Below the pieces are notes generated by a model. It was not told where the DNA came from. It worked only from the letters and a program-made list of their open reading frames with translations, and made no database searches. Shown in pieces: positions 2,222 through 19,900 of a stretch of 64,000 bases of DNA (positions are counted from its first letter, which is position 1; every line of letters starts with the position of its first letter). Both the position numbers and the translations under genes were made by a program. The stretch lies in the NCBI RefSeq assembly GCF_035593345.1, contig NZ_CP141606.1:3658001-3722000 (forward strand), read 5' to 3'. This DNA comes from Lelliottia sp. JS-SCA-14 (GTDB lineage Bacteria > Pseudomonadota > Gammaproteobacteria > Enterobacterales > Enterobacteriaceae).

Positions 2222-5200
2222 ATGTATAAAAAAAGAATCCCGCCGACTCCGGCGGGCTATATTCGGCAGTGGCTGATATGGACGCAAATTGCGCTACAGA
2301 TTATTTTTCCTTTTTTTACCGTCTTTCCTGCCAGCGCCGGGGAAGTCAAGGATGACGGGCAGGAATACGCCTCCCTGAGCGACAATATTAATCAGGTTGC
2401 CAGCACGCTGGCGGCAAATAATCTCCAGCAAAGCCTCTCTCAGGCTAAAGGCAACCTGGTCTCCGGCGTCACCTCCTCGGCGTCGTCCTCCGCGCAGGCG
2501 TGGCTCAGCCAGTTTGGCACCGCGAAAGTGCAGCTGAATGTCGACCAGGACGGCAACTGGGATCAAAGCTCGCTGGATCTGCTGGTTCCGCTTTACGATG
2601 ACAAAAAATCCATGCTGTTCAGCCAGTTTGGTTTGCGTAAACCCGACGATCGATTGACGACCAACCTCGGGATGGGGGTGCGAACCTTTTATCTCGACAA
2701 CTGGATGCTGGGCGGCAACGCCTTCTTTGATGATGACATGACGGGCAAAAACCGCCGCGTGGGGTTCGGGGCGGAAGCCTGGACCAACTTCCTGAAACTC
2801 TCAGCCAACGGCTATCTGGGCACCACCCAGTGGCACAGCTCCCGCGACTTTGACGACTACAACGAAAAACCTGCCGATGGTTTTGATATTCGGGCCGAGG
2901 CATATCTCCCCGCACTTCCGCAGCTGGGCGCAAAAGTCATTTATGAAAAGTACTACGGCGATAAAGTGGCACTGTTTGATAAAGATGACCTGCAAAAAAA
3001 TCCGTCTGCCGTCACCATCGGCGTGAACTATACCCCCGTTCCGTTGATCACCGTGGGCACCAACTATCGCCGCGGTCAGGACGACATGAACGATATGCAG
3101 TTTCAGGTCGATATGCGATTCGACTTTGGCCACGACTGGCGTTATCAGCTCTCCCCGGACAACGTGGCGCTGCAGCGCAGCCTGGCGGGAAGCCGTTACG
3201 ATGTGGTCGAGCGTAACAACCAGATCGTGATGCAATATCAGAAGAAAGAGACTCAGGGCGTAACCACCCTGCTGATGACGGCCCTCACGGATTACAGCCC
3301 GGCGGATGGTCTGGCGCAGAACACGCTCCAGGTTCAGGCGCTGGATGCCAAAGGGGATAAGGTCAAAGGCGCGCCTGTGGCCTGGTCCGCCTCCGGCAAC
3401 GCGAAGCTGGACAGAACCGCCGGCTCAACGGATGCCGAAGGGATGATGACGATTAATATTTCCGATGCTCAGAATGAAATCGTCAACGTCACCGCCACCA
3501 GCGGCAGCGCCTCCACCACTCTCCCGTCGCACTTTAACGAGGTCAAAGCGGCGAAACTGGTGCTGACGGTGGATAAAAACGGCAGCTTCGCCAACGGCCA
3601 GGCGACGGACGATGCCACGGTTCGCGTATCGGACATCAACAATCATCCGGTGGCGAACACCAAAGTCGCCTGGGCGCTTGAGGCTCCGGCGAAGCTCGCG
3701 GAATCTCAGGCGGTCACGGATGCCGAGGGGCTGGCGCACGTCAAAGCCACCTCCCTGGTGCCGGGTGAATCTGTGCTGTCGGTCAGTTCGGGCGATCTGT
3801 CCGACCAGAAAACGTTGCAGTTTGTCGTCAACGCCGAACAGGCCAAAATCACCGACTTTAGCGTCACCGTCGATAACAGCCCCGCCAACGGCAAAACGCA
3901 AAACAGCGCGCTGATAACCGTAAAAGATCCCTCCGGAAATCCGGTCAAAGACCAGCCGGTAACGGTGAAAGCGGACAAATCGACGGTCGCGTTTGGCGCA
4001 CCGGCCAAAGCGCGCGCGGCGACGCCGGGCCAGACCGATGACAAAGGGGAGCTGCGCGTCTCATTCAGCGACACGGTAGCCGAAAGCGTGCAGCTCACCG
4101 CCACGCTCAGCAACGGCGACAGCAAGCAGACGCAGGCGACCTTCGTGGCCGACAGCGAAAGCGCGACGTTACACGACCTTAAGGTGACGAAAGACGGCGC
4201 GCTGGCGAACGGCACCGATGCCGACCACGCAGAGGTGACGGTGCTCGACGGCCAGGGCAATCCCCTCGCTAACCAGCTGATCACCTGGAGCGCGACCCCG
4301 CAGGGCACCACCTTCCTGCCCGCCAGAACCAGCACCACCGACAGCGCGGGTAAAGCGCAGATCGGCTACACCAGCAAGATCGCGCAAACCATCCAGCTGA
4401 CCGCCACGCTCGCCAACGGCGAAAAAGCCAGCACCGCGTCGCTTTTCGTCCCGGATGCCAACAGCGAGCAGATTAAAACCTACACCGTCACCGGCGGGGC
4501 GGTAGCGAACGGCACCGCCACCAACAGCGCCACGGTCATCGTGACCGATAGCTTTAACAACCCGGTCACGAGTGAGAAAGTGACCTGGACGCTCTCCGGC
4601 ACGGCGGTCGGGTCGGAGCCGGAAAGCACCACCGATGCCGCCGGTAAAGCCTCCATCACCCTCACCGACACTAAAGCGGAGACCGTAGGCGTGAAGGTGG
4701 CCCTGAAAAATGGCGCCACTGAAACTCAGGACTCGGTGTTTGTCGCCGACAGCGAGCACGCGCTCATCACCTCATTGCAGGTGACAAAGGACGGCAGCCC
4801 GGCGGATAACAAAACGCCTGACACGGCAAAAATCGTGGTGATGGATAGCCACAATAATCCGGTGAAAGATGCAGTGGTGACCTGGACGTTCGACAGCGCC
4901 TCAGTCACCGCCCCCGCCACCAGCAAGACCAATAAAGACGGCGAAGCCAGCGTGGACTACACGGATGCCATCGCCGAGTCGGTTAATCTCACCGCCTCCC
5001 TGGCAAACGGTGAGCATAAAAGCGTGGCAAGTCAGTTTGTCGCCGATGTCTCCTCCGCCAAAGTGGCGCTTGCGATGCTTAAAGATGGGGAGTTAGCCGA
5101 TGGGCAAAAAGCGGACGTGGTCAAAGCGGTGGTGACGGATGCGCTGGGCCATACGCTGGCGAATCAGACCATCACCTGGAGCACTGGCAGCACCACGGCT

Positions 5201-6244
5201 TCCGTTGAGCCGACCAGCCAGACGAACATCACCGGTGAGTCGCAGGTGACCGTCACTGATACCGTCGGGGAAGCGGTGAACATCACCGCCACACTCGCCA
5301 ACCAGGCCACGGCGTCGCAGACGGCGAGCTTCACCTCGCACAGCGTGACGGCGATCCAGCAATACCGTAGCCCGCAGAAGGCGGACGGCAGCGGGCAGAT
5401 CTACTTCACGGCGACGGTGACCAACGAAAAAGGGGCGCCGGTAAAAGATTCTCCGGTCACCTTTAGCACCACGGGTCATGGCGTGCTAAGCGCCACCACG
5501 ATGAATACGGATGGGAACGGCGAAGCAGAGGTCATAGAGACCGATGTAACGCCGGAAGTGGTGACGGTGACGGCGAAATCTGCGGATTACGCGCTGGATG
5601 CCGGGAAAAGCACCACCGGGGAGTTTACCCAGGATCAGATCACCGCCCTGACCGCGAACGGCAAGAGTTTTGCCCCTGACGCCGGGTTCCCGAAAACCGG
5701 CTTCCTCTCGGGGAGCTTTACGCTGGAGATCGGCAATACAACGGCGAACAACGCCAACTATACCTATACCAGCGATAACAGCTGGCTACGGCCTGACAGC
5801 ACGCCCGGTAAGTACATCATGGCGTCGCCCCCGACCGTCGACATGAAAACCGTGACCCTGACGGCCACGCCAAAATCCGGCCAGGGGCAGCCGCTCACCT
5901 ATGTCGTGCACCTCGATCACTGGTTTACCAACATCGCGCGGTCATCGAAAGATCCGACGATCGCCGATCAGGACTGTCTCAATAAAGGGATGACCATCCC
6001 GGGTTACAAATTACTGTCCGATGTGCCTCCCAGCAGTCAGGGTGTGCGTGCTGTCGGCAGTTTGTGGGGAGAATGGGGCGATCTGAGCACCTACAGCAAC
6101 TGGTCGACGGCCAGTACCGCCCAGTCGATGTGGGCGGCGGAGGATGGCGTTCACGAAACCCGCATTTTCGTCCACTGGCGTGATGGCTACGTGAACGAGA
6201 ACATCCCGTCCGACAATATGGACGAGGTGTGTCTGGCGTTCTAA
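2222..6244 (+). CDS. Inverse autotransporter adhesin (intimin/invasin family)
   Basis: A 1,340-residue outer-membrane adhesin. Residues 1–40 form a signal peptide with a long hydrophobic core (LQIIFPFFTVFPASAG). Residues about 45–345 are the inverse-autotransporter barrel (motifs LDLLVPLYDD, GMGVRTFYLDNWMLGGNAFF, GFGAEAW, GTNYRRGQDD). About eight Big-1 Ig-like repeats follow (roughly 346–1140), each with an A/D-NG-T…A…V(T/R)V.D…PV pattern. The end has an invasin D3-like domain and a lectin-like tip with two cysteines (DQDC and DEVC, residues about 1250–1340), the usual disulphide of the intimin tip. No LysM domain is seen before the barrel. The barrel inserts through BAM and exports the downstream repeats to the surface. 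A single gene with a lysR neighbour; the receptor is unknown. Confidence 0.92.
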   Translation: MYKKRIPPTPAGYIRQWLIWTQIALQIIFPFFTVFPASAGEVKDDGQEYASLSDNINQVASTLAANNLQQSLSQAKGNLVSGVTSSASSSAQAWLSQFGTAKVQLNVDQDGNWDQSSLDLLVPLYDDKKSMLFSQFGLRKPDDRLTTNLGMGVRTFYLDNWMLGGNAFFDDDMTGKNRRVGFGAEAWTNFLKLSANGYLGTTQWHSSRDFDDYNEKPADGFDIRAEAYLPALPQLGAKVIYEKYYGDKVALFDKDDLQKNPSAVTIGVNYTPVPLITVGTNYRRGQDDMNDMQFQVDMRFDFGHDWRYQLSPDNVALQRSLAGSRYDVVERNNQIVMQYQKKETQGVTTLLMTALTDYSPADGLAQNTLQVQALDAKGDKVKGAPVAWSASGNAKLDRTAGSTDAEGMMTINISDAQNEIVNVTATSGSASTTLPSHFNEVKAAKLVLTVDKNGSFANGQATDDATVRVSDINNHPVANTKVAWALEAPAKLAESQAVTDAEGLAHVKATSLVPGESVLSVSSGDLSDQKTLQFVVNAEQAKITDFSVTVDNSPANGKTQNSALITVKDPSGNPVKDQPVTVKADKSTVAFGAPAKARAATPGQTDDKGELRVSFSDTVAESVQLTATLSNGDSKQTQATFVADSESATLHDLKVTKDGALANGTDADHAEVTVLDGQGNPLANQLITWSATPQGTTFLPARTSTTDSAGKAQIGYTSKIAQTIQLTATLANGEKASTASLFVPDANSEQIKTYTVTGGAVANGTATNSATVIVTDSFNNPVTSEKVTWTLSGTAVGSEPESTTDAAGKASITLTDTKAETVGVKVALKNGATETQDSVFVADSEHALITSLQVTKDGSPADNKTPDTAKIVVMDSHNNPVKDAVVTWTFDSASVTAPATSKTNKDGEASVDYTDAIAESVNLTASLANGEHKSVASQFVADVSSAKVALAMLKDGELADGQKADVVKAVVTDALGHTLANQTITWSTGSTTASVEPTSQTNITGESQVTVTDTVGEAVNITATLANQATASQTASFTSHSVTAIQQYRSPQKADGSGQIYFTATVTNEKGAPVKDSPVTFSTTGHGVLSATTMNTDGNGEAEVIETDVTPEVVTVTAKSADYALDAGKSTTGEFTQDQITALTANGKSFAPDAGFPKTGFLSGSFTLEIGNTTANNANYTYTSDNSWLRPDSTPGKYIMASPPTVDMKTVTLTATPKSGQGQPLTYVVHLDHWFTNIARSSKDPTIADQDCLNKGMTIPGYKLLSDVPPSSQGVRAVGSLWGEWGDLSTYSNWSTASTAQSMWAAEDGVHETRIFVHWRDGYVNENIPSDNMDEVCLAF

Positions 6245-6815: not shown

Positions 6816-7664
6816 GCCCGGTGGCGCTGCGCTTACCGGGCCTACAAAAGCCAGTTCGGAGGGTTTTGTAGGCCGGGTAAGGCGAAGCCGCCACCCGGCG
6901 CATACACCGCTGCGGCCCCAATTCGCCCGGTGGCGCTGCGCTTACCGGGCCTACAAAGTCCAGTTCGGAGGGTTTCGTAGGCCGGGTAAGGCGAAGCCGC
7001 CACCCGGCGCAAACGCCGCTGCGGCCTCAATTGCCCGGTGGCGCTGCGCTTACCGGGCCTACAAAGGCCAGTTCGGATGGTTTTGTAGGCCGGGTAAGGC
7101 GTAGCCGCCACCCGGCGCAAACACCGCTGCGGCCCCAATTCGCCCGATGGCGCTGCGCTTACCGGGCCTACAAAGTCCAGTTCGGAGGGTTTTGTAGGCC
7201 GGGTAAGGCGAAGCCGCCACCCGGCGCAAACACCGCTGCGGCCCTAATTCACCCGGTGGCGCTGCGCTTACCGGGCCTACAAAGGCCAGTTCGGAGGGTT
7301 TTGTAGGCCGGGTAAGGCGTAACCGCCACCCGGCGCAAACACCGCTGCGGCCCCAATTCGCCCGATGGCGCTGCGCTTACCGGGCCTACAAAGGCCAGTT
7401 CGGAGGGTTTTGTAGGCCGGGTAAGGCGAAGCCGCCACCCGGCGCAAACACCGCTGCGGCCCCAATTCGCCCGGTGGCGCTGCGCTTACCGGGCCTACAA
7501 AGTCCAGACCGGATGGTTTTGTAGGCCGGGTAAGGCGTAGCCGCCACCCGGCGCAAACACCGCTGCGGCCTCAATCGCCCGGTGGCGCTGCGCTTACCGG
7601 GCCTACAAAGACCAGCCCGGAGGGTTTTCGTAGGCTGGGTAAGGCGTAGCCGCCACCCGGCGCA
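6816..7664. repeat. Tandem array of eight ~109-bp REP-pair (BIME) units
   Basis: Eight units begin at 6816, 6925, 7033, 7142, 7251, 7360, 7469 and 7577, spaced 108–109 bp. Each holds two inverted REP-like palindromes: GCCCGGTGGCGCTGCGCTTA followed by CCGGGCCTAC, then TGTAGGCCGGGTAAGGCG followed by CCGCCACCCGGCGC. They are separated by a short linker (CAGTTCGGAGGGTT or close variants) and units are joined by CACCGCTGCGGCC-rich DNA. Units differ by a few substitutions (GGTGG/GATGG, CGAAGCC/CGTAGCC). This is a BIME-type array; such elements bind gyrase, IHF or Pol I and stabilise mRNA 3' ends. Open frames across it are artefacts. Confidence 0.93.
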
Positions 7665-7699
7665 AACAGCGAAAGTCTCAACTTTATTTCCCCTCACCC

Positions 7700-7728
7700 C
7701 GAATAAATCTCCCTCCCCGTGCGTTTAC
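7700..7728 (+). promoter_or_regulatory. Candidate ECF sigma promoter of the yceI-like gene
   Basis: CGAATA at 7700–7705, 15 nt, then GCGTTTAC at 7721–7728, ending 29 bp before the ATG at 7758. The same two blocks with exactly the same spacing occur in front of the TPR–sigma–anti-sigma operon on the other strand (10246–10218). A −35/−10 pair of an ECF-type promoter is the simplest reading; sigma assignment is inference. Confidence 0.6.
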
Positions 7729-7757
7729 CCCTTGCCCGCATACTGGAGATCCGCCCG

Positions 7758-8309
7758 ATGATTCGCCCTTTGATATTTGTGCTCGCCCTGCTCTCTCCTG
7801 CCCTTTACGCGCAGCCGGTCAGCTATGTCATCAACACCGAGAAAACCCCCATTACCCTCTCGTGGCACGCCTTCGGCGGTATCCTCTCCTGGGCCAATCT
7901 CAACGGCGTGACCGGGAACGTCACCCTGGATCCGAAGAATGAGTTCAGCGATCGCATCGAGGTCACCATCCCCGTCTCGACGCTGGTGGCGTCCAACCGC
8001 CTGCTCACCTGGCAGCTCAAGAGCGATATGTTTTTCGACGCCGCGCGCTACCCCACGATCCAGTTCAACAGCACGCGAATCGTCACGCTCGGCGACGGGC
8101 GTTTCAGGGTGTTTGGCTCACTCAAGGTCAGGGACATTACCCGCCCGGTGATCCTGGAGGCGACGCTGGAAGAGCACAAAGCGCAGGAGTCCATCTCGCT
8201 GCACGCCACCACCGCCATCTCACGATCCGCCTATCAGATGGATAAATTCGCGATGGTGGTGGATGACCGCATCAATATTAACATTGAGATCCAGGCCAGC
8301 GCCTCATAG
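7758..8309 (+). CDS. YceI-family periplasmic protein
   Basis: 183 residues: a signal peptide (MIRPLIFVLALLSPALYA) and then a YceI-like lipocalin-type barrel (YVINTEKTPITLSWHAFGG, LNGVTGNVTLDP, FNSTRIVTLGDGRFRVFGSL, ISRSAYQMDKFAMVVDD). YceI proteins are periplasmic and can bind isoprenoid-type lipids. I chose the ATG at 7758, after CTGGAGAT, because the open frame's earlier start would lie inside the candidate promoter. The gene converges on the anti-sigma gene with a 6-bp overlap of the coding ends. It shares its upstream element with the sigma operon, so it is probably a target of this ECF factor. Ligand unknown. Confidence 0.85.
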   Translation: MIRPLIFVLALLSPALYAQPVSYVINTEKTPITLSWHAFGGILSWANLNGVTGNVTLDPKNEFSDRIEVTIPVSTLVASNRLLTWQLKSDMFFDAARYPTIQFNSTRIVTLGDGRFRVFGSLKVRDITRPVILEATLEEHKAQESISLHATTAISRSAYQMDKFAMVVDDRININIEIQASAS

Positions 8310-9092
8310 CAGCGCCAGCTGCAGCTGACGCGCGCTGGCCTTAAGCTGCGTCGCCGGGTTGCGACCAATCAGCACAAACTGATAGTCCCTGTCGCGCCAC
8401 CAGGCGACATTCATCCCGTGCCGCTGTTCGTTGCTGATATCGGTCACATCCCCCTGCTCAAGGGGGGAAATACACAACGCCATCGGCCCGAAATCCGCAT
8501 GCATCCAGACGATCTGAGCGATCGCCGTGCTCTCGTAGCGCAGCATGCGGATCATCTTCAGCTCCGCATCGGCCAGAGCCAGCTGCAGCTCACTCACTTT
8601 CAGGCCAATATCCTCGGCGGTACGCACGATCCCCCTTGCAATGAGCGGCGGTGAGCTGTCCACATCCAGCAGAGTTTCGGCGCTGTAGAGCGACATGTAC
8701 TGCGCCTCAAGATCGCGAATACGTTCGTTCTCCGTGTGCAACGCCACCGACGGACGCGCCAGATAGCCGAGCCCGGAACCGATCAGCAGAAAACCGACGG
8801 ACGCGGCGATAAGCGCGCGGCGGCTGACACCGGGCCGGGACGCCGGGGTGTTTGCCAGCCAGGTCTCCAGCCGTTCCTCCATCTGCGCCGACGGCGCCTC
8901 TTCCAGCAAAGGCGCAAACGCGCGCTGATAATCCTGATGGCTGGTTTTCAGCTCCTCCGTGCGCGCCGAGAGCCGCTCGTCGTGGGCAAGCTGCTCTGCA
9001 AAGACGCGGGCGTCGTTGGGGTCCATCTCACCATCCAGCCAGGCGACAATCGCATCGTCCTGATAAGGAGGCGTAAAACGTAACGATTTCAA
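8304..9092 (-). CDS. Membrane anti-sigma factor
   Basis: 262 residues. The N-terminal cytoplasmic part (about 1–85) has an anti-sigma layout (IVAWLDGEMDPNDARVFAEQ), one membrane segment follows at about 92–112 (ALIAASVGFLLIGSGLGYLA), and the rest is periplasmic. No zinc-binding HxxxCxxC pattern is present, so it is not a classic ZAS protein. It begins with TTG overlapping the TGA of the sigma gene (TTGA), implying translational coupling. It should hold the ECF factor inactive at the membrane until an envelope signal arrives. Family role is well supported by gene order; the signal is unknown. Confidence 0.82.
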   Translation of the reverse strand: MKSLRFTPPYQDDAIVAWLDGEMDPNDARVFAEQLAHDERLSARTEELKTSHQDYQRAFAPLLEEAPSAQMEERLETWLANTPASRPGVSRRALIAASVGFLLIGSGLGYLARPSVALHTENERIRDLEAQYMSLYSAETLLDVDSSPPLIARGIVRTAEDIGLKVSELQLALADAELKMIRMLRYESTAIAQIVWMHADFGPMALCISPLEQGDVTDISNEQRHGMNVAWWRDRDYQFVLIGRNPATQLKASARQLQLALL

Positions 9093-9538
9093 GAGCGTTT
9101 CTCCTTTGCTGCCGGGCGGGCGTCCAGGGTTTTCGCCAGCTGGGCCCGCGCCGTGGCCAGGCGGCTCATCACGGTGCCGATGGGGACCGACAGCGTGTCA
9201 GCCGCCTCCTGATAGGTGAATCCTTCGACGTAGACTAAAAACAGCGTGTTGCGCTGGGCTTCGGGAAGAGCATTCACCCGCTGCATGATTTTTTGATAGT
9301 GAATGCGATCCTCATCCTGCCCGTGGGTATCCGGGGCGATCAGCTCTTCGCTGGGCACAAATCCCTGCCCCTGGCGGACGTGGCGGGCGCGCAGATCGGA
9401 GATCCAGATCGAGTGGAGAATCGAGAACAGCCATCTGTCGATACGGGTGCCCGGCGTGTATTGCGCGCTCCGTTCGAGCGCGCGGACGCAGGTCGACTGA
9501 ACCAGCTCCTCAGCCAGATCCCGGTTTCGCGACAGCAC
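9089..9538 (-). CDS. ECF-type RNA polymerase sigma factor, 5' end irregular
   Basis: From the GTG at 9538 the protein is 149 residues: most of region 2 (LAEELVQSTCVRAL, then RIDRWLFSILHSIWIS) and a full region 4 (LPEAQRNTLFLVYVEGFTYQEAADTLSVP, split by me here as the sigma-4 HTH, followed by GTVMSRLATARAQL). ECF proteins normally have about 20 more residues, and the upstream DNA in this frame encodes exactly such a helix (DVRQQLAAHLTRLWRYGLV). However, the frame has no ATG, GTG or TTG there: the ATG at 9611, after GGGAGGG, is one base out of frame and stops after six codons. Either a single A is extra in the A5 run at 9604–9608, or initiation is non-canonical. See findings. Confidence 0.75.
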   Translation of the reverse strand: MLSRNRDLAEELVQSTCVRALERSAQYTPGTRIDRWLFSILHSIWISDLRARHVRQGQGFVPSEELIAPDTHGQDEDRIHYQKIMQRVNALPEAQRNTLFLVYVEGFTYQEAADTLSVPIGTVMSRLATARAQLAKTLDARPAAKEKRS

Positions 9539-9626
9539 CAGCCCGTAGCGCCAGAGGCGCGTCAGGTGTGCTGCCAGCTGTTGGCGAACGTCACTGGTGG
9601 TGATTTTTCATACCCTCCCGCTGCAA

Positions 9627-10178
9627 TCAGGATTCCGGATGGCCGTTGATCGCCGCCTGCAGATCGCGATACTCCTCGCAATCCTGGCCGCAAATCCCGG
9701 CAATGACTTTCAGCTGCTCTTTCGCCAGATCCGGGCGACCTTTCACCATCCAGGCTTCACCCAGATACTCACGCGCTTTGGCGTAGTTGGGCTGCAGGGC
9801 AAGGGAGCGCTGATAATAGCCGATGCCCTCATCCGTGCGCCCCAGTTTGCGGGTCGCATAGCCGCGATAATTCCACGCCTCTGCCGTATTGGCATTTTTC
9901 AGGGAATCCAGCAGATTCAGCGCCGCCTGGTACTCCCCTTTTTTCGCGAGGTGGTACGCATAATTGGTTTTGTCCTCATCGCTGAGGCTGCTGGTTTTCT
10001 CCGGGACACAGGTCTTACTCACGCTGTCGTACACCTGTCCCGACGGGCAGTCCGGCGTTTTACTCTCAGTATCATTATTGCCCATCGCAAAGACCTGCGG
10101 GGCCTGTAAGAAAAATAACAGCGCCGGGATGGCGAGGGTTTTAGCGAAGGTACGAGGAAGCGATGACAGAGCGTTCAT
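9627..10178 (-). CDS. Exported TPR-repeat protein of the ECF module
   Basis: 183 residues. A signal peptide (about 1–31, ending LQAPQVFA) leads into a short Cys-containing segment (DCPSGQVYDSVSKTCVP) and then TPR-like helix pairs (about 70–165; EAWNYRGYATRKLGRTDEGI, YYQRSLALQPNYAKAREYLG), with a second Cys pair in GICGQDCEEY. It is the first gene of the operon TPR–sigma–anti-sigma, 16 bp before the sigma gene's ribosome-binding region. A periplasmic sensor or partner for the anti-sigma factor is plausible from position but not shown. The candidate ECF promoter ends 40 bp before its ATG. Confidence 0.8.
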   Translation of the reverse strand: MNALSSLPRTFAKTLAIPALLFFLQAPQVFAMGNNDTESKTPDCPSGQVYDSVSKTCVPEKTSSLSDEDKTNYAYHLAKKGEYQAALNLLDSLKNANTAEAWNYRGYATRKLGRTDEGIGYYQRSLALQPNYAKAREYLGEAWMVKGRPDLAKEQLKVIAGICGQDCEEYRDLQAAINGHPES

Positions 10179-10217
10179 TTTCTACTCCTGGTTCGGTGGT
10201 TGTCAGGTGAACGAGGA

Positions 10218-10246
10218 GTAAACGCCTGAGCGCCTGCTTCTATTCG
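10218..10246 (-). promoter_or_regulatory. Candidate autoregulated ECF sigma promoter of the TPR–sigma operon
   Basis: On the minus strand CGAATA (10246–10241), 15 nt, then GCGTTTAC (10225–10218), 40 bp before the ATG at 10178. Identical blocks and identical spacing to the element at 7700–7728 in front of yceI. Autoregulation of ECF operons is the usual arrangement. Confidence 0.6.
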
Positions 10247-10961
10247 ACGAAAAGGGAAGATTTATCGGTGCCGAAAATCATACTAACGGCCTATGCAACC
10301 TGGTAACGGAAAAGGATAAATTGAGCCAACAATAAAGCCCGTATTTATTATTAGCGTATCTAGCAGATTATTGCCGCTTCGCCACTCCTATTTTTCATTC
10401 CGGTCGCAAACATAATATATCGTATAAATGATTCATTCACCGCATCTAAAATAACGTTTTAGCCCTCCTTAATTGACCGCATATTTACATTCAATAAATT
10501 CAAATATATTCACTGAATTAATTCGCATTATATCCAAACCCGAAAAGAGAAAAAAACACCGCAGCCGCACGCCACGCGGGATGCGGTGGGAAACTGGCTT
10601 ATAGCCATCTTGGTAAAACTATTCAATTCAGAAGGGGTTAACTGCAGGTTACCGGTGCTTCATTTGCATAATCTGATATTTATAGCTATATCATTTTTAG
10701 TCCATTTAAATAATATCTTTATAAATCACAGGGCTTTATATAACACAAAAAACACCGAATACAAGTCAAGCCAAAGTAAATAAATAGCTTCACCTGATGT
10801 TGCCACTCTATTCGCTGGCGGGCATCGGCCGCTCTGAAGAAATCAACGGTAAGCACTATCGTCAAAAATAGTGAATTCGCCGGGGGCGCTCTTTACCCGC
10901 AGAAAAGTGATGGCTTCGTCTTGCACGCCATTTCAATAAAAATCTGTTGGGAGTCATCAAT
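10247..10961. other. AT-rich region upstream of the giant adhesin
   Basis: About 700 bp, mostly AT-rich to 10790, then a GC-richer stretch. It contains a 24-codon open frame (10797–10871) that reads like a coding remnant, and an inverted repeat CACTAT–N8–ATAGTG (10854–10873). The adhesin promoter should lie here. No RNA gene or convincing longer CDS seen. Confidence 0.4.
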
Positions 10962-13900
10962 ATGAGCCAAATCTCTGTCATTTCGAAACTTACTGGCGTG
11001 GAAACCACCACAGAAGGCACTCAGGTTACTCTGGATCACTCCTCCATTGTGAAGCTTCACGTCGGCCGGGCCGACATTTCCCACTACACGCGCAGTGGCA
11101 ACGATCTGATCGTCAGCCTGCACTCCGGCGAAGTCATTACCCTGAAAAACTTTTACCACGGCGACGCGCAGGGCGAGAGCCAGCTGGTGCTGCAGGAAGG
11201 CAACGGCGCGCTGTGGTGGATTGAAGACCCAACCGCCGCAGAGCACTACGAGGCGATTGCCTCAACGGATGTGCTGATGGGCTCCTCCGGCGATGGCGGC
11301 GGCGCGGCCATCTGGCCGTGGGTGCTGGGCGGTGTTGCCGTCGCAGGCGGGATCGCCCTTGCCGCGGGTGGCGGTGGCGGCGGAGGCGGTGGTGGTGGCG
11401 ATGACGACAACCCGACCAACCCTGGCAATCCGGGGAACCCGACTGACCCGGACACTACGCCGCCGAACGCACCGACCAATCTGCAGTTCTCCGGGGATGG
11501 GACCTCGGTCTCAGGGACCGCAGAGCCTGGCAGCACTATCACCCTGAAAGATGCCAACGGCAATCTGGTCGGCACCGGGAAAACCGGCAGCGACGGGAAA
11601 TTCACCATTGAACTCGGCACCCCGCTGACCAACGGCGAGCAGATTTCTGCCACCGCCACCGACTCCTCCGGCAACGTCAGCAAAGAGGGTCACGTCACCG
11701 CGCCGGATCTGGTCACGCCGGATGCACCGGACATTTTGATCGTTAACGACGATGTCGGGAGCGAAACGGGCCCGCTGTCCAACGGCCAGCGCACGGATGA
11801 CGCGCGCCCGACCCTGAGCGGGATCGGCGAAGCGGGCACCACCATCACCATCTTCGATAACGGCACCAAAATCGGCACCACAACCGTCGACGCCAAGGGC
11901 AACTGGAGTTTTACCCCGCCGAATGCGCTGTCCAACGGCAGCCATACCCTGACCTCTACCGCCACCGATGCGGCGGGACACACCAGCGCGCCGTCTGCCG
12001 GGATCACCATTGTGGTCGATACGGTGGCGCCAACGGCACCGGTGATTTCCAGTGTCACCGATGACGTCGACCCGGTCACCGGGCCGCTCAACAACGGCGG
12101 CAGCACCAACGATCAGCGCCCGCTGCTCACCGGCACCGCCGAAGCCAATTCCACGGTGACGATCTACGATAACGGTATCGCAATCGGCACCGTCACCGCC
12201 GCCGCGAACGGCAGCTGGACCTTTACCCCGTCCGTCAATCTGAGCGAAGGCAGCCATGTGCTGACGGTTCGCGCCACCGACGTGGCCGGGAATACCAGCC
12301 CCGCCTCGCCGGGCTTTACTATCACGGTCGATATCACCGCTCCCGCCGCACCGTCGGCGTTTGTGGTGAACGATGAAGTCGGCTCGATCCGCGGCGCGGT
12401 TTCCGCCGGCCAAACCACCGACGCCAGCCAGCCACGCCTCACGGGCCGCGGCGATCCGGGCAGTACGATTATTATTTACGATAACGGCGTGGAAGTCGGG
12501 AGAGTGACCGTCGGCCCGAACGGCCTGTGGGCCGTAGCGCCGAATGGCCCGCTGTCGGAAGGCCCGCACTCGGTCACGGTGCGTGAAATTGACGCCGCCG
12601 GAAACCCGAGCGGCCTGTCGCAGGCCATCAACTTTATCGTCGACACTGTCGCACCGACCCAGCCGGTGATCGCCTTAAACCCTGCCGGGAATCAGGTGAC
12701 CGGCACCGCCGAACCGAACAGCACCATTACCATCACCAACGGCACCGGTCAGAGCTGGACGGGCACGACAGATGGCAGCGGTAACTTCACTATTCCGCTC
12801 AACCCTGCGCAGACCAACGGCCAGACCATTTCCGTCATCGCCTCTGACGCCGCCGGGAACGACAGTATTCCGGCCAACGTCGTCGCCACCGACACCATCG
12901 CCCCGAACCCACCGGCCGATCTCACCGTCGCCGGTAACGGCGCCAGCGTCAGCGGCACCGCCGAAGCCAACAGCACCGTCACGGTCAAAGATCCGGGCGG
13001 CAATGTCATTGGCACCGGCACCACCGACGGGACCGGCCATTTCACCGTGCCTGTCGCTCCGCCGCAAACCAATGGCGAAGTGCTGGAAGTGATCGCCAAA
13101 GACCCCGCAGGCAATGCGAGTCAGCCGGGTCATGCCGATGCACCGGACACCACCGATCCGCTGGCACCGGATAATCTGGCTGTCTCTGACGATGGCACCA
13201 CCGTCACCGGCACCGCCGAGCCGGGCAGTACCGTCAGCATCAAAGGCCCGGATGGCACCGAGCTGGGTCACGCCACGGCGGGCGATAACGGCGACTTTAC
13301 CGTCACTATCAACCCGCCGCAGCTCAATGGCGAAACACTGACCGCCGACGCGACGGATCATGCGGGCAACACCGGGCCAACCGCCTCGGTGGATGCCCCG
13401 GATATCACCCCGGCGCAAACCCCGGTGATCACGTCGGTGTATGACGACGTAGCCAACGGCATCGGTGATGTCGCGAACAATGGCCTGACCAACGACGCGA
13501 CGCCAACCATTCGCGGCACCGGGGAGCCGGGCACCACGCTCTATCTCTTCAGCGGCAGCAATCAGATCGGTACCCTGACCATCCCACCGAGCGGCATCTG
13601 GGAGTACACCCCATCGGTGCACCTGCGCGAGGGCGGGCACGTCCTGACCGCCACCGCCATTGACGCCGCCGGGAACGCCAGCGGCACCTCGAACAGCTGG
13701 AGTATTACCGTCGACAGCGCGGCCCCTGCGGCACCGGTCATTACCTCCGTGGTTGACGATGTCCCAGGCAGAACCGGTCCGCTCGATACCGGCGAAATCA
13801 CCAACGACGCTCGTCCAACCCTCAACGGCACGGGCGAACCTGGGGCGACCATCAGCGTGCGTCTGGACGGCGTGCAGATCGGTACCGCCGTGGTCAGCGA

Positions 13901-16900
13901 TGGCGGTTCATGGACCTTTACCCCGACGCAGGCGCTCCCGGAAGGCGGCCCGCATACGCTCACCGCCGTGGCGATAGATCAGGCCGGGAACGTCGGTTCC
14001 CTTTCGAATGGATTTGAGATCATCGTCGACACCACGCCGCCACCGGCTCCGTCGATCGCGACGGTCACCGACAACACCGGGAGCGTCACCGGCCCGGTCA
14101 CCAGCGGCACCCCGACGGATGAAACCCGTCCGGTGCTGACGGGCAACGCTCCGCCGAATACGATTATCACCGTGTATGACGGCACCACCCTGCTCGGCAC
14201 CGCCACCCTCAACGGCAGCGGCGGCTGGAGCTTTACCCCACTCACCCCGCTCACCAACGGCACCCACTCCCTGACGGTGGTCGCGACCGATTCCGCAGGC
14301 AATTCCACGTCCTCACCGCCATTTAGCCTGGTGGTGGATACCGTCGCCCCGGCGACGCCAGACTCCCCGGACGTGACCGTCAACCCGGACGGCCAGCCAA
14401 CGGCGCTGAATCCTGGCGAAGCGACGCGCGACACCACGCCGACCTTAAGCGGCACCGGCACGCCGGGCGATACGGTGACCATCTACATTGACGGCGTTAA
14501 ACAGCCTGATGTGATCACTGTTCAGCCGAACGGCACATGGACCTGGACGCCGACTCAGGCGCTGCCAAACGGCTCTTACGATGTCGCCCTGACCGTGACC
14601 AACAAAGACGGCGCGGGCAACGAAAGTGCGCCATCTCAGCCGGTGACCATCATCATTGATACCGATCCGCCAGCGACCCCGACCGCACCGGTGGTGACCG
14701 ATAACGTCAGCCAAATCACCGGCCCGGTTGCGGATAACACCAGCACCAACGATTCACGTCCGGTGCTGAGCGGCACCGGTACCGCCAACGACGTGATCAT
14801 TATTTATGACAGCGTGGGCGGCGCGGCGAAAATCGAAGTGGGCCGCGTCACCGTCGGCGCGGACGGCAACTGGAGCTGGCGGCCAGACACGGCGCTGACC
14901 CAAACCACCCACGCCTTCACCACCACCGCCACCGACGAAGCGGGGAACGTGTCGGGCACATCGCCGGTGATTACGGTGACGGTGGATACCACACCGCCGG
15001 TCACGCCTGAAATCACCGCAGGTACCGTCGCTAATGGCGGCTCGACGTCAGACGCCACCCCGACCATCAGCGGGACCGGCACCAGCGGCGATACGGTGAT
15101 TATCTATAACAACGGGGTCGAAGTGGCTCGCGTGCCTGTCACCGGCGGTAACTGGACCTGGACCAGCCCGTCCGTCTCAGACGGCGCGCTGAAACTGACC
15201 GTCTCCTCCGTCGATGCAGCGGGTAACGTCAGCGGCACCAGCCCTATTTACACCATCACGGTGGATACCGTCGCGCCGACCACGCCGCAGATTGATAGCA
15301 TCTCCAGCAGCACACTGGCGAACGGCACGCTCTACACCAACGACAGCACACCGACCATCAGCGGCAAAACCGAAGTTGGCAGCACCATCACCGTGCGGAT
15401 CGACGGCGGCGCGCCGCAGCAGGCCACCGTGGATGCCAACGGTAACTGGACGCTGACCCTGCCGAACGGCTCAGCGCTGACGGATGCCCCTCATACCATT
15501 ATCGTCACCGCCACCGACGCCGCTGGAAACGCCACGCCGAGCGCGCCGGTGACCGTGACGGTTGATACGAATGCCCCAAATGCACCAGTGGTCACCAGTC
15601 TGGCTGTCGAAGGGACGCCGCTGACAGGCACCGCAGAACCGGGCTCTACGGTGATCGTCAAAGGGCCAAATAACGTTGAACTGGGTCGGGGCGTCACCGA
15701 TGGCTCGGGCAATTACTCCATTGCCCTTTCTCCGGCGCAAAACAACGAAACCACCCTGACCGTCACGGCGACAGACGCCGCAGGCAACGTCAGCGGCCCG
15801 ACAGACTATCAGGTCACCGACACGCCGAATCTGCCGGATGTTCCGGCGATCACCTCCATCGTCGATGACAATGGTCTCAGCGGTGACGTTGAGGTGAAAG
15901 GCGCAAGCTCCAACGACACCACGCCGATCCTCAGCGGGACCGCCGTGGCGAACAGTATTGTGACCATCTATCTCGATGGCAGCCTGGTGCCCTGGGCGGT
16001 CGTCACCGCTGGCCCAACCGGAGCCTGGACAGCCAGCTCGCTGGTCCCGCTCGGCGAAGGCCCGCACAGCTTTGCTGCCACCGCCACCGTGGGCGCTGAG
16101 ACCAGCGGCCTCTCTCCTGCCGCCACCGTCACCATCGATCTGACCGCACCGAACGCACCAATCCTCGGCGCAGTCACCGATGACGTCGGCCCTGGCACCG
16201 GGCCGCTGACCAACGGACAAATCACCAACGACAGCCGCCCAACCCTGAGCGGCACCGCCACGGCGGGCGATACCATTACCATCTACAACAATGGCACCGC
16301 CATTGGCACTGTGGTGGTGGGTTCCACCGGCACCTGGAGCTTTACCCCAGGGGGGGCGCTGGGGGAAGGCAACCACGCCCTGACCATTTCCGCCACCGAT
16401 CCGGCGGGGAATGAAAGCCCGCAATCTCCGCCGTTCAATATCGTGGTCGATACGGTCTCCACCACGCCGGTGATTGTCGGCGCGGACGATAACGTCGGCA
16501 CCGTGACCGGGAACGTCCCGTCCGGCGGCACCACCAACGACAGCACGCCGACGCTTTCGGGCACGGCGGAAGCCAACAGCAGCATCGCGATTTTCGAAGG
16601 CAGCACCCAGATTGGCACCGCCACCGCCAACGGTTCGGGGAGCTGGAGCTTTACCCCGACCACGCCGCTGGGCGAAGGCAGCCACACCTTTACGGTGATC
16701 GCGACCGATCCTCAGGGCAACGTCAGCACCAGCTCGAACAGCTACACCGTGATCGTCGATCTCACCCCGCCAGCGGTACCGGTGCTCACCTCCGTTGCCG
16801 ATGACGTGCAGGGCGGCGCGGTCGGCAATCTGACCTCGGGGCAGCTCACCAACGATGCCACGCCAACCCTCACCGGGACCGGCGTCACGGGCAGCACCAT

Positions 16901-19900
16901 TCACATCCTGAATAATGGTACTGAGATCGGCACCGCAGTGGTCGTGGGCGGGGCCTGGACCTTTACACCGCCGACCGGACTGGCCGACGGCGTGTACAAC
17001 ATCAGGATCAACGCCACCGATCCGGCGGGTAATATCTCGGCGAACTCCCCGGTCTTCTCCTTCACCGTGGATACCACGCCGCCTGCGGCACCGGCTCTCA
17101 CCTCGGTGCAGGACGACGTCGGCCCGGTCACCGGAAATATCACCGACGGCGGCAGCACCAACGACAGCCGGCCAACCTTTAACGGCACCGGCGAGATCGG
17201 GGCGACGGTCACTCTGCTCAGCGACGGACAACCCTTCGGTACCGCGGTGGTGAACTCCCAGGGGAACTGGACTTTCACGCCAACGGCACCGCTGGCCGAC
17301 GGGGCGCACACCATCACCATCAGCACCACCGACGTGGCGGGCAATACCTCCATCACCAATACCACCTTCACCCTGACGGTCGATACCCAGCCGCCAGCCG
17401 CACCGCTGATTATTAACGCCACGGATGACGTCGGCGCTATTCTCGATCCGGTGTTAAACGGCAAAACCACCGACGATACCCGACCGCAGCTGAACGGTTC
17501 GGCGGAGGCCAACGCCACCATCATCATCTATGAAAATGGCGTCCAGGTCGGCACGGTGCAGGCCAACGGCTCGGGCGCATGGAGCTTCACCCCGCCGAGC
17601 GCCCTGAGCAACGGCAGCCACACCTGGACCGCCACCGCGACCGACGCGGCGGGCAACGTCAGCGTGGCGTCGCCGGGCTTCACGGTGATCGTGGATACCA
17701 TCGCACCGCTGGCTCCAGCCATCACCCAGGCGATTGACGATGTCGGCACCGTCACCGGCCCGCTCGGCAGCGGCCAGACCACAGATGACACCCTGCCGCG
17801 CCTGATCGGGACCAGCGAACCGAACGCGACCATCAATATCTATGAGGGCAACACGCTCCTCGGTACCACCACGGCGGATGCCAGCGGGAACTGGGCGGTG
17901 ACGATCACCACCGCGCTCACGGCAGGACCGCATAACCTTGTCGCGCAGGCCACCGATGCTGCGGGGAATAACAGCGATCCGTCCCCGAGCTTTAGTCTGA
18001 CTATCGACCTGACGCCGCCAACCATTCCGGTGCTGCTGACGGTGGTGGATGACGTCGGCACCGTGACCAACCTGACCAGCGGCCAGCTCACCAACGACGC
18101 CCAGCCAACCCTCTCGGGCACGGCGGAAGCGGGCTCGACGGTGAAAATCTACGATAACGGCGTGCTGATTGGCTCCGTCACTGCCACCGGCGGCGCGTGG
18201 TCCTTCACACCGACCCCGGCGCTGAGCGACGGGCTGCATCCCCTGACCATCACCGCCACCGACGCCGCCGGGAACGCCAGCGGTCCGACAACGGCCTTCG
18301 TGGTTAACGTGGACGCCACCGCGCCAATTGCCCCGGTGATTTCGTCGGTGGTCGATGATGTCGGCACCATCACCGGACCGGTGATCAACGGCAATCCGAC
18401 CAACGATACGACGCCGACGCTGAACGGCACCGCCGAGGCCAACACGACGGTGCGCATTTACGACAACGGCGTGCTCATCGGCACCGTGACCGCCGATGGT
18501 AACGGCGTCTGGACGCTGCCGCAGGCCACCATCTCGTTGACCAACGGACAGCACAACTTCACCGCCACTGCGACGGACGCGGCGGGCAACACCAGCGCAC
18601 CGTCGTCCATCACCTCCATCGTGCTGGATACCGTCGCACCGGGTGTGCCGGGCACGCTGGCCGTCATCAGCAACGGGACACACGTCACCGGTCTGGCGGA
18701 AGCGGGCAGTACCGTCACCATCACCAGCAGCACCGGGACCGTACTGGGCACGGCGACAGCGGACGGCAGCGGCGCGTTCAACGTCACTATTTCACCGGCG
18801 CAGACCAACGGCGAAACCCTGCTCGCCTTTGCGACTGATAAAGCCGGTAACGCGGGCGCAACGAGCAACGTCATCGCGCCATTCACTAACCTGCCGAATG
18901 CGCCGCTGATCACTACCGTCAACGACAACGTCGGGACCATCACCGGCAATCTGACCAACGGCAAATCTACCGATGACACCACGCCAACCCTGAGCGGGAC
19001 GGCGCAGCCGAACTCCACCATTACGCTGTACAACAACGGCGTGGCGATGGGCACGGCGACCACGGATGTCAACGGTAACTGGACCTTTACCACGCCGGTG
19101 CTGGGCGAAGGCTCCCACGCCTTTACCGCCACCGCCACCAACGTCATCGGCGGCACCGGGCCGGTCTCGCTGCCGACGACGGTCATCGTCGACACCATCG
19201 CCCCGAACGCGCCGAACGGCACCTTCAACGCCGACGGCAGCGTGCTGACGGGCACCGCCGAAGCGGGCAGCACCGTCACCATTCGTCTGGCGGATGGTTC
19301 AACGGTCACCACCACGGCGAATGCCGGAGGCACCTACAGCTACAGCTTCCTCAATAAACAGACGGAAGGTCAGACCCTGCAAATCACCGCCACCGATGCG
19401 GCGGGCAACACCTCGACGCCGGGCTCGGCACTGGCCCCTGTGGTGCCGCTGTCGGCCAGTTCGAACGTGGAGGAGCTGGCACTCGGCACCACGGCGACGG
19501 TGACGAACGCTCAGTACAGCGACTACGGCTCCCTGCTGGTCGGCGCGCTGGGCAACGTCCTGACGCTGCTGGGCAACGACACGGCGCAGGTCGGCTTTAC
19601 GGTCAGTGCGGGCGGAAGTGCGGATATTTCGATCAACGCTAACGCCACGGGCGTGGTGCTTTCTCTGCTCAATACCCTGGAAGTGGTGGTGCAGCGCTGG
19701 GATGCGGTCAACGGCACCTGGACCACGGTGGTGGACACCGGTCTGCCGCAGTTTGCCAACCTGCTGACCCTCGGGGCGAGCGGCGTGACGCTCAACATGA
19801 CCGGGCTGGCGGACGGGCAATACCGCGTGCTCAGCTACAACACCAACCTGCTGGCAACCGGGTCCTACACCAGCCTCGACGTGGATGTCACCCAGACCAG

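Follow-up and report, generated by a model that had tools for sequence, protein, structure and literature searches.

Two predicted promoters and a predicted AUC/AUU start codon at an ECF26-type sigma factor locus of Enterobacterales

A stretch of 64,000 nucleotides from the genome of Lelliottia sp. JS-SCA-14 (contig NZ_CP141606.1, positions 3,658,001 to 3,722,000; hereafter the window) carries a gene for an extracytoplasmic function (ECF) sigma factor that is enclosed by two copies of a two-block sequence element. One copy, CGAATA-aatctccctccccgt-GCGTTTAC, is located on the forward strand at 7700–7728 in front of a yceI-like gene; the other, CGAATA-gaagcaggcgctcag-GCGTTTAC, lies on the reverse strand at 10246–10218, in front of a gene for a tetratricopeptide repeat (TPR) protein that is followed by the sigma gene and a probable anti-sigma gene. 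The locus thus raises the question of which regulator reads the two copies and, as the sigma reading frame opens without a conventional start codon, of where its translation begins. We are confident that the sigma factor encoded between the copies reads both of them as −35/−10 promoters, one serving its own operon and one the yceI-like gene, and that the system is of the ECF26 type with a weak AUC or AUU start codon. What appears to be new is the conserved start codon; the promoter and the module belong to a known kind.

The two-block element and its conservation

An identical element on both sides of the sigma module had been claimed in the original prediction, and both copies are present, with the −35 box at 7700–7705 and 10246–10241, a spacer of 15 nt, and the −10 box at 7721–7728 and 10225–10218, respectively. 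The distance to the yceI ATG (7758) is 29 nt as predicted, while the distance to the TPR ATG (10178) is 39 nt and not 40. The pattern CGAATA-N14..17-GCGTTTAC matches twice in the window and never in 100 window shuffles. A search of the whole genome (5,005,402 bases), which had been proposed together with the prediction, returns the same two matches only, compared to one match for the reversed control; no exact element is found outside the module anywhere in this genome. With a spacer of 15 and up to two mismatches, the reversed control gives more matches than the element itself (34 versus 23), and hence no further site stands out. A wider regulon in the source genome, which also contains a second YceI gene and five b561-type genes, is therefore unsupported.

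For a comparison among relatives, 80 named loci were taken from their contigs (the best 80 of 103 relatives); adding the window and discarding one duplicate gives a scanned set of 80 loci and 984,392 bases. It was searched with the relaxed pattern [CT]GAATA-N15-N[CT]GTT[AT]A[CT], where a match counts as operon-side if it precedes the sigma gene by at most 1,700 nt and shares its strand. Of the 80 loci, 68 have such an element ahead of the sigma operon; among the 36 with a yceI match, 34 have one in front of that gene. In all cases the spacer is exactly 15 nt and the element is on the same strand as the gene. Just one other match was found across the whole set, an additional upstream match in L063. 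When spacers from 8 to 23 are allowed, spacer 15 accounts for 103 matches and each other length for 0 to 3, and controls with scrambled blocks (n = 190) yield 0.38 matches on average and six at maximum. The block columns are nearly invariant, and most spacer columns carry less than 1 bit. Loss of the element upstream of orthologous modules had been named beforehand as one observation that would speak against a promoter; instead, the element is kept at most of them. Together with the genome-wide counts, its conservation rules out a chance match or a simple duplication.

Within the genus, 23 of 35 relatives were included in a comparison of consensus sites. A YGAATA-N15-GCGTTWAC site is present at the module in 13 of the 14 relatives with the sigma gene and in none of the nine without it. 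In L097, L098 and L099, the operon has TGTT as its −10 box and yceI has CGTT; since both forms occur inside a single genome, they are probably read by one sigma factor.

Several observations weigh against a self-activating sigma factor with sites only at its module. The operon-side element is missing from 12 of the 80 loci, including all eight Pectobacterium loci, each of which retains the yceI copy; the remaining cases are Pantoea allii, P. ananatis, Erwinia aphidicola and one short contig. Consensus matches off the module were found six times in the genus relatives (two in the reversed control), all of them inside open reading frames of at least 100 amino acids, and another six times in other families. 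A relaxed search for the missing operon sites revealed CGAATA-N14-GCGTTAAC in E. aphidicola and, in six Pectobacterium loci, a loose GAAMA-N15-TCGTCA resemblance within the reading frame of a short-chain dehydrogenase (SDR), which was excluded from the counts. On the yceI side, the element is missing in L054 and in L124, where the spacer is 14. Of the predicted arrangement, an ECF promoter in front of an autoregulated operon and a YceI target, the promoters are thus supported by conservation, while the autoregulatory loop is not universal because of the loci without an operon-side element.

The Pectobacterium loci would also suit a different reading, in which only yceI-like and b561 genes are under the control of the element, and its operon-side copy acts on the leading TPR or b561 gene without sigma autoregulation. 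A location of the operon copy more than 900 nt upstream of sigma, as seen in 32 of the 68 loci having one, points in the same direction. We nevertheless consider this reading unlikely: the window has its TPR, sigma and anti-sigma genes tightly packed on one strand (TPR stop at 9627, sigma start at 9604), as they are in many relatives, and this packing favours their cotranscription. Conservation by itself does not name what reads a site, and the two blocks might be bound by a separate DNA-binding regulator instead. This is very improbable in view of blocks that are non-palindromic, keep one fixed spacer and orientation, track the sigma gene within the genus, and fit the published ECF26 promoter form (PMC6180224). 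We regard the element as very probably the promoter of the local ECF sigma factor. A scan for sigma-70 promoters gave three weak promoter-like sites, compared to a mean of 1.2 in shuffles, and one of the three, at 10306–10277 on the reverse strand, could provide basal transcription of the operon.

The start codon of the sigma gene

In the window, the sigma gene (9089–9604, reverse strand) opens after an in-frame TGA (9610–9608) with AAA-ATC, and the following NTG codon is located 22 codons further in. The ATC at 9604–9602, which we assign as the start codon, is preceded by the Shine-Dalgarno sequence GGGAGGG (9613–9619, reverse strand). We surveyed this position in 91 distinct sigma sequences; Shine-Dalgarno and periodicity figures refer to 89 of them. 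The codon is ATC in 66 sequences, ATT in 21, ATG in two, ATA in one and GTG in one, where the ATG records are two Erwinia persicina and the GTG record is Acerihabitans. In 60 of 89 sequences, a GAGG or GGAGG ends 8 nt ahead of the codon. The stretch from the upstream in-frame stop to this codon is free of ATG, GTG and TTG in 54 of 91 (35 with ATC, 15 with ATT, two with ATG, one each with ATA and GTG).

The pattern of variation changes at the same place. Entropies for the first, second and third codon position are 0.60/0.39/1.35 in codons 2 to 21 and 1.74/1.84/1.81 in codons −12 to −5. The 52 sequences that are closed upstream show periodicity after the start codon and none ahead of it; the 37 that are open upstream have less variable codons ahead of it (1.38/1.62/1.52), again without an excess at the third position. 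A quick protein tree that leaves the start codon out requires a minimum of 16 changes from ATC to ATT or back, and of three between either of these and anything else. An out-of-frame ATG ahead of the ATC suggested that the sigma start might be broken in the window, an idea that was dropped because relatives share the ATC or ATT codon in different contexts.

Some of the data weigh against initiation at this codon. Six of the 89 sequences have none of the Shine-Dalgarno words sought, an in-frame NTG is found upstream in 37 of 89, and among the 120 homologs listed, 69 are annotated longer and 17 shorter, with 22 at this codon and 12 that could not be placed. The upstream NTG codons and the annotations, together with the GTG or ATG that many sequences have as codon 21 or 22, would agree with translation from an upstream GTG, TTG or ATG or from an internal NTG, such that ATC or ATT would be an ordinary isoleucine codon. 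We judge this highly unlikely. More than half of the sequences lack any upstream NTG behind the stop, the next NTG in several Pectobacterium and Raoultella sequences follows only 58–106 codons downstream, and the position itself is taken by ATG or GTG in the Erwinia persicina and Acerihabitans records. The Shine-Dalgarno spacing and the periodicity that sets in directly after the codon argue in the same sense. That sigma translation starts at a conserved weak AUC or AUU codon is strongly supported by these sequence comparisons.

It is unexpected that a regulatory gene, probably situated inside a positive feedback loop, appears to retain a start codon that is among the weakest in bacteria. If this holds true, translation initiation helps to keep such loops silent, and start sites as annotated in this family are unreliable.

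Gene content of the module and a proposed mechanism

The yceI-like gene (7758–8309, forward strand) encodes a predicted exported protein with a YceI domain (PF04264, E = 4.3e-26, 92.5 bits against a cut-off of 23.7). The sigma gene is convergent to it, and its product carries Sigma70 regions 2 and 4 (PF04542 and PF08281, both above cut-off), as expected for an ECF sigma factor. In the records L111 and L124 the sigma reading frame is broken. The gene downstream (8304–9092, reverse strand) encodes a probable membrane anti-sigma factor, whose TTG start overlaps the sigma stop by 4 nt; an NTG start overlapping the sigma stop is seen in 88 of 91 loci. The N-terminal part of this protein resembles EcfR6 of Sinorhizobium meliloti (E = 2e-4), and its structure model consists of N-terminal helices, a long low-confidence helix at 91–111 and a C-terminal sheet domain. 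The protein matches no family of Pfam or NCBIfam at E 0.001, no solved relative was found by sequence, and weak zf-HC2 matches occur in 28 of 38 of its relatives. The TPR protein (9627–10178, reverse strand), assigned by its TPR families, has a signal-like N terminus and four cysteines that are conserved in 67, 67, 69 and 69 of 70 aligned rows, the others being gaps. Two of these cysteines are close to the N terminus and two are close to the C terminus.

The first gene of the operon varies. Pfam was run on three of the loci with a distance above 900 nt (Rouxiella L071, Pantoea L084, Rahnella L127), and in each the first gene encodes a cytochrome b561 of the prokaryotic type (PF01292); judged by their translations, many other such loci resemble these three. 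A short-chain dehydrogenase precedes sigma in Pectobacterium L053, and a Cronobacter plasmid is annotated with the order SDR, cytochrome b, sigma and hypothetical protein, with YceI convergent. Sigma orthologs (E ≤ 1e-90) were found in 16 of 35 same-genus genomes, whose loci were retrieved as well, and the sigma gene in 18 of 149 genomes sampled from the family, the source genome counted. The E. coli genomes gave no match at megablast sensitivity. We describe a compact predicted two-promoter regulon for a sigma factor that is scattered through the Enterobacterales.

A mechanism may be proposed from these features. An envelope signal would free the sigma factor from its membrane anti-sigma factor, and the freed sigma factor would transcribe its own operon (TPR, sigma, anti-sigma) and the convergent yceI-like gene, as their conserved promoters suggest. 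By pattern, it probably targets nothing beyond these two promoters in the source genome. The weak AUC or AUU start presumably keeps sigma synthesis low and would so prevent the positive feedback loop from firing spontaneously. Judging from its products (YceI, an exported four-cysteine TPR protein and the cytochrome b561 of other genera), the system may serve a periplasmic redox or envelope stress response.

Directly upstream of the yceI promoter, a 109-bp unit is repeated 7.8 times in tandem with 94% matches (6816–7668); by reading of its sequence, this array holds palindromes of the repetitive extragenic palindromic (REP) kind. The window further encodes, judged by translation alone, a 1340-aa protein (2222–6244) that reads like an inverse autotransporter of the intimin/invasin type with repeated domains, and a 3729-aa protein with immunoglobulin-like repeats (10947–22136) that reads like a large BapA-type adhesin.

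Comparison with ECF26 systems and other non-AUG starts

By sequence and promoter, we assign the system to the ECF26 type. Two reports (PMC6180224, PMC3511301) deal with RpoE1, RpoE3, RpoE4 and RpoE6 as ECF26 sigma factors of S. meliloti. RpoE6, which we located through its published promoter string within a pSymA stretch (L158), is the only member that was compared pairwise, and the window sigma factor is 40% identical to it over 155 residues. According to PMC6180224, the S. meliloti promoters fit a cross-species consensus of GGAATA at −35 and GT at −10; the element described here, with [CT]GAATA and [CT]GTT boxes at spacer 15, differs in the first base. We aligned ten published sites of the group, leaving out the GGACGA-like rpoE6 promoter. 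A spacer of 15 suits five of them, with a clear fit for SMc01022, SMc01418, SMc04291 and rpoE4 and a poor one for SMc02156; the other five, comprising sorT and the RpoE6-type sites, agree with a spacer of 14. An ECF15 site has the lowest score in the promoter alignment.

The original prediction knew of no description of this regulon. This has to be revised as regards the promoter, which is of a described kind: it matches the ECF26 form, and a nearly identical site, CGAATA-N15-GCGTCTAA, precedes the YceJ-family gene SMc01022, which is induced by overexpression of RpoE1 and RpoE3 (PMC6180224). In our searches, which covered part of the literature, we found neither a YceI regulon in Enterobacterales nor a paper linking an ECF sigma factor with YceI. 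As in S. meliloti, a related sigma factor is followed directly by a membrane anti-sigma gene, here for a protein with a putative N-terminal anti-sigma domain, a low-confidence membrane helix and a putative periplasmic domain; several S. meliloti targets share the GAATA-N15-GT promoter, and RpoE1 likewise activates its own operon, while RpoE3 does not (PMC6180224). In contrast to S. meliloti, where −10 boxes are mostly CGTC and RpoE6-type sites have spacer 14, we find CGTT or TGTT and an AUC or AUU start codon. The lipoprotein gene or divergent serine protease gene that accompanies RpoE1 and RpoE6 is replaced by TPR, b561 or SDR genes, in addition to yceI; this context does not define ECF26, since RpoE3 and RpoE4 lack it as well. 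The C-terminal domain of the anti-sigma factor may be compared to that of the envelope stress sensors RseB and MucB, with a Z score only modestly above the best of 7–8 that is typical of models without relatives; here, the domain would belong to the anti-sigma factor itself.

With respect to translation, the closest parallels are infC and pcnB, which PMC9410913 describes as the E. coli genes with an AUU start; infC of the source genome also shows ATT. Like these, the sigma gene combines a rare AUU or AUC start (87 of 91 sequences) with a Shine-Dalgarno sequence. It differs in encoding a sigma factor and in using AUC more often than AUU, and a link to initiation factor 3 (IF3) is a candidate only. 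In the part of the literature covered, we found no report of an AUU or AUC start in any sigma factor. We tentatively suggest, with somewhat more doubt than confidence, that a self-activating stress sigma factor is curbed in translation by a selected AUC or AUU start under predicted IF3 discrimination, with its output tied to the balance of initiation factors. If so, it would represent another natural class of non-AUG control besides infC and pcnB, conserved across the Enterobacterales and mostly masked by inconsistent gene annotation.
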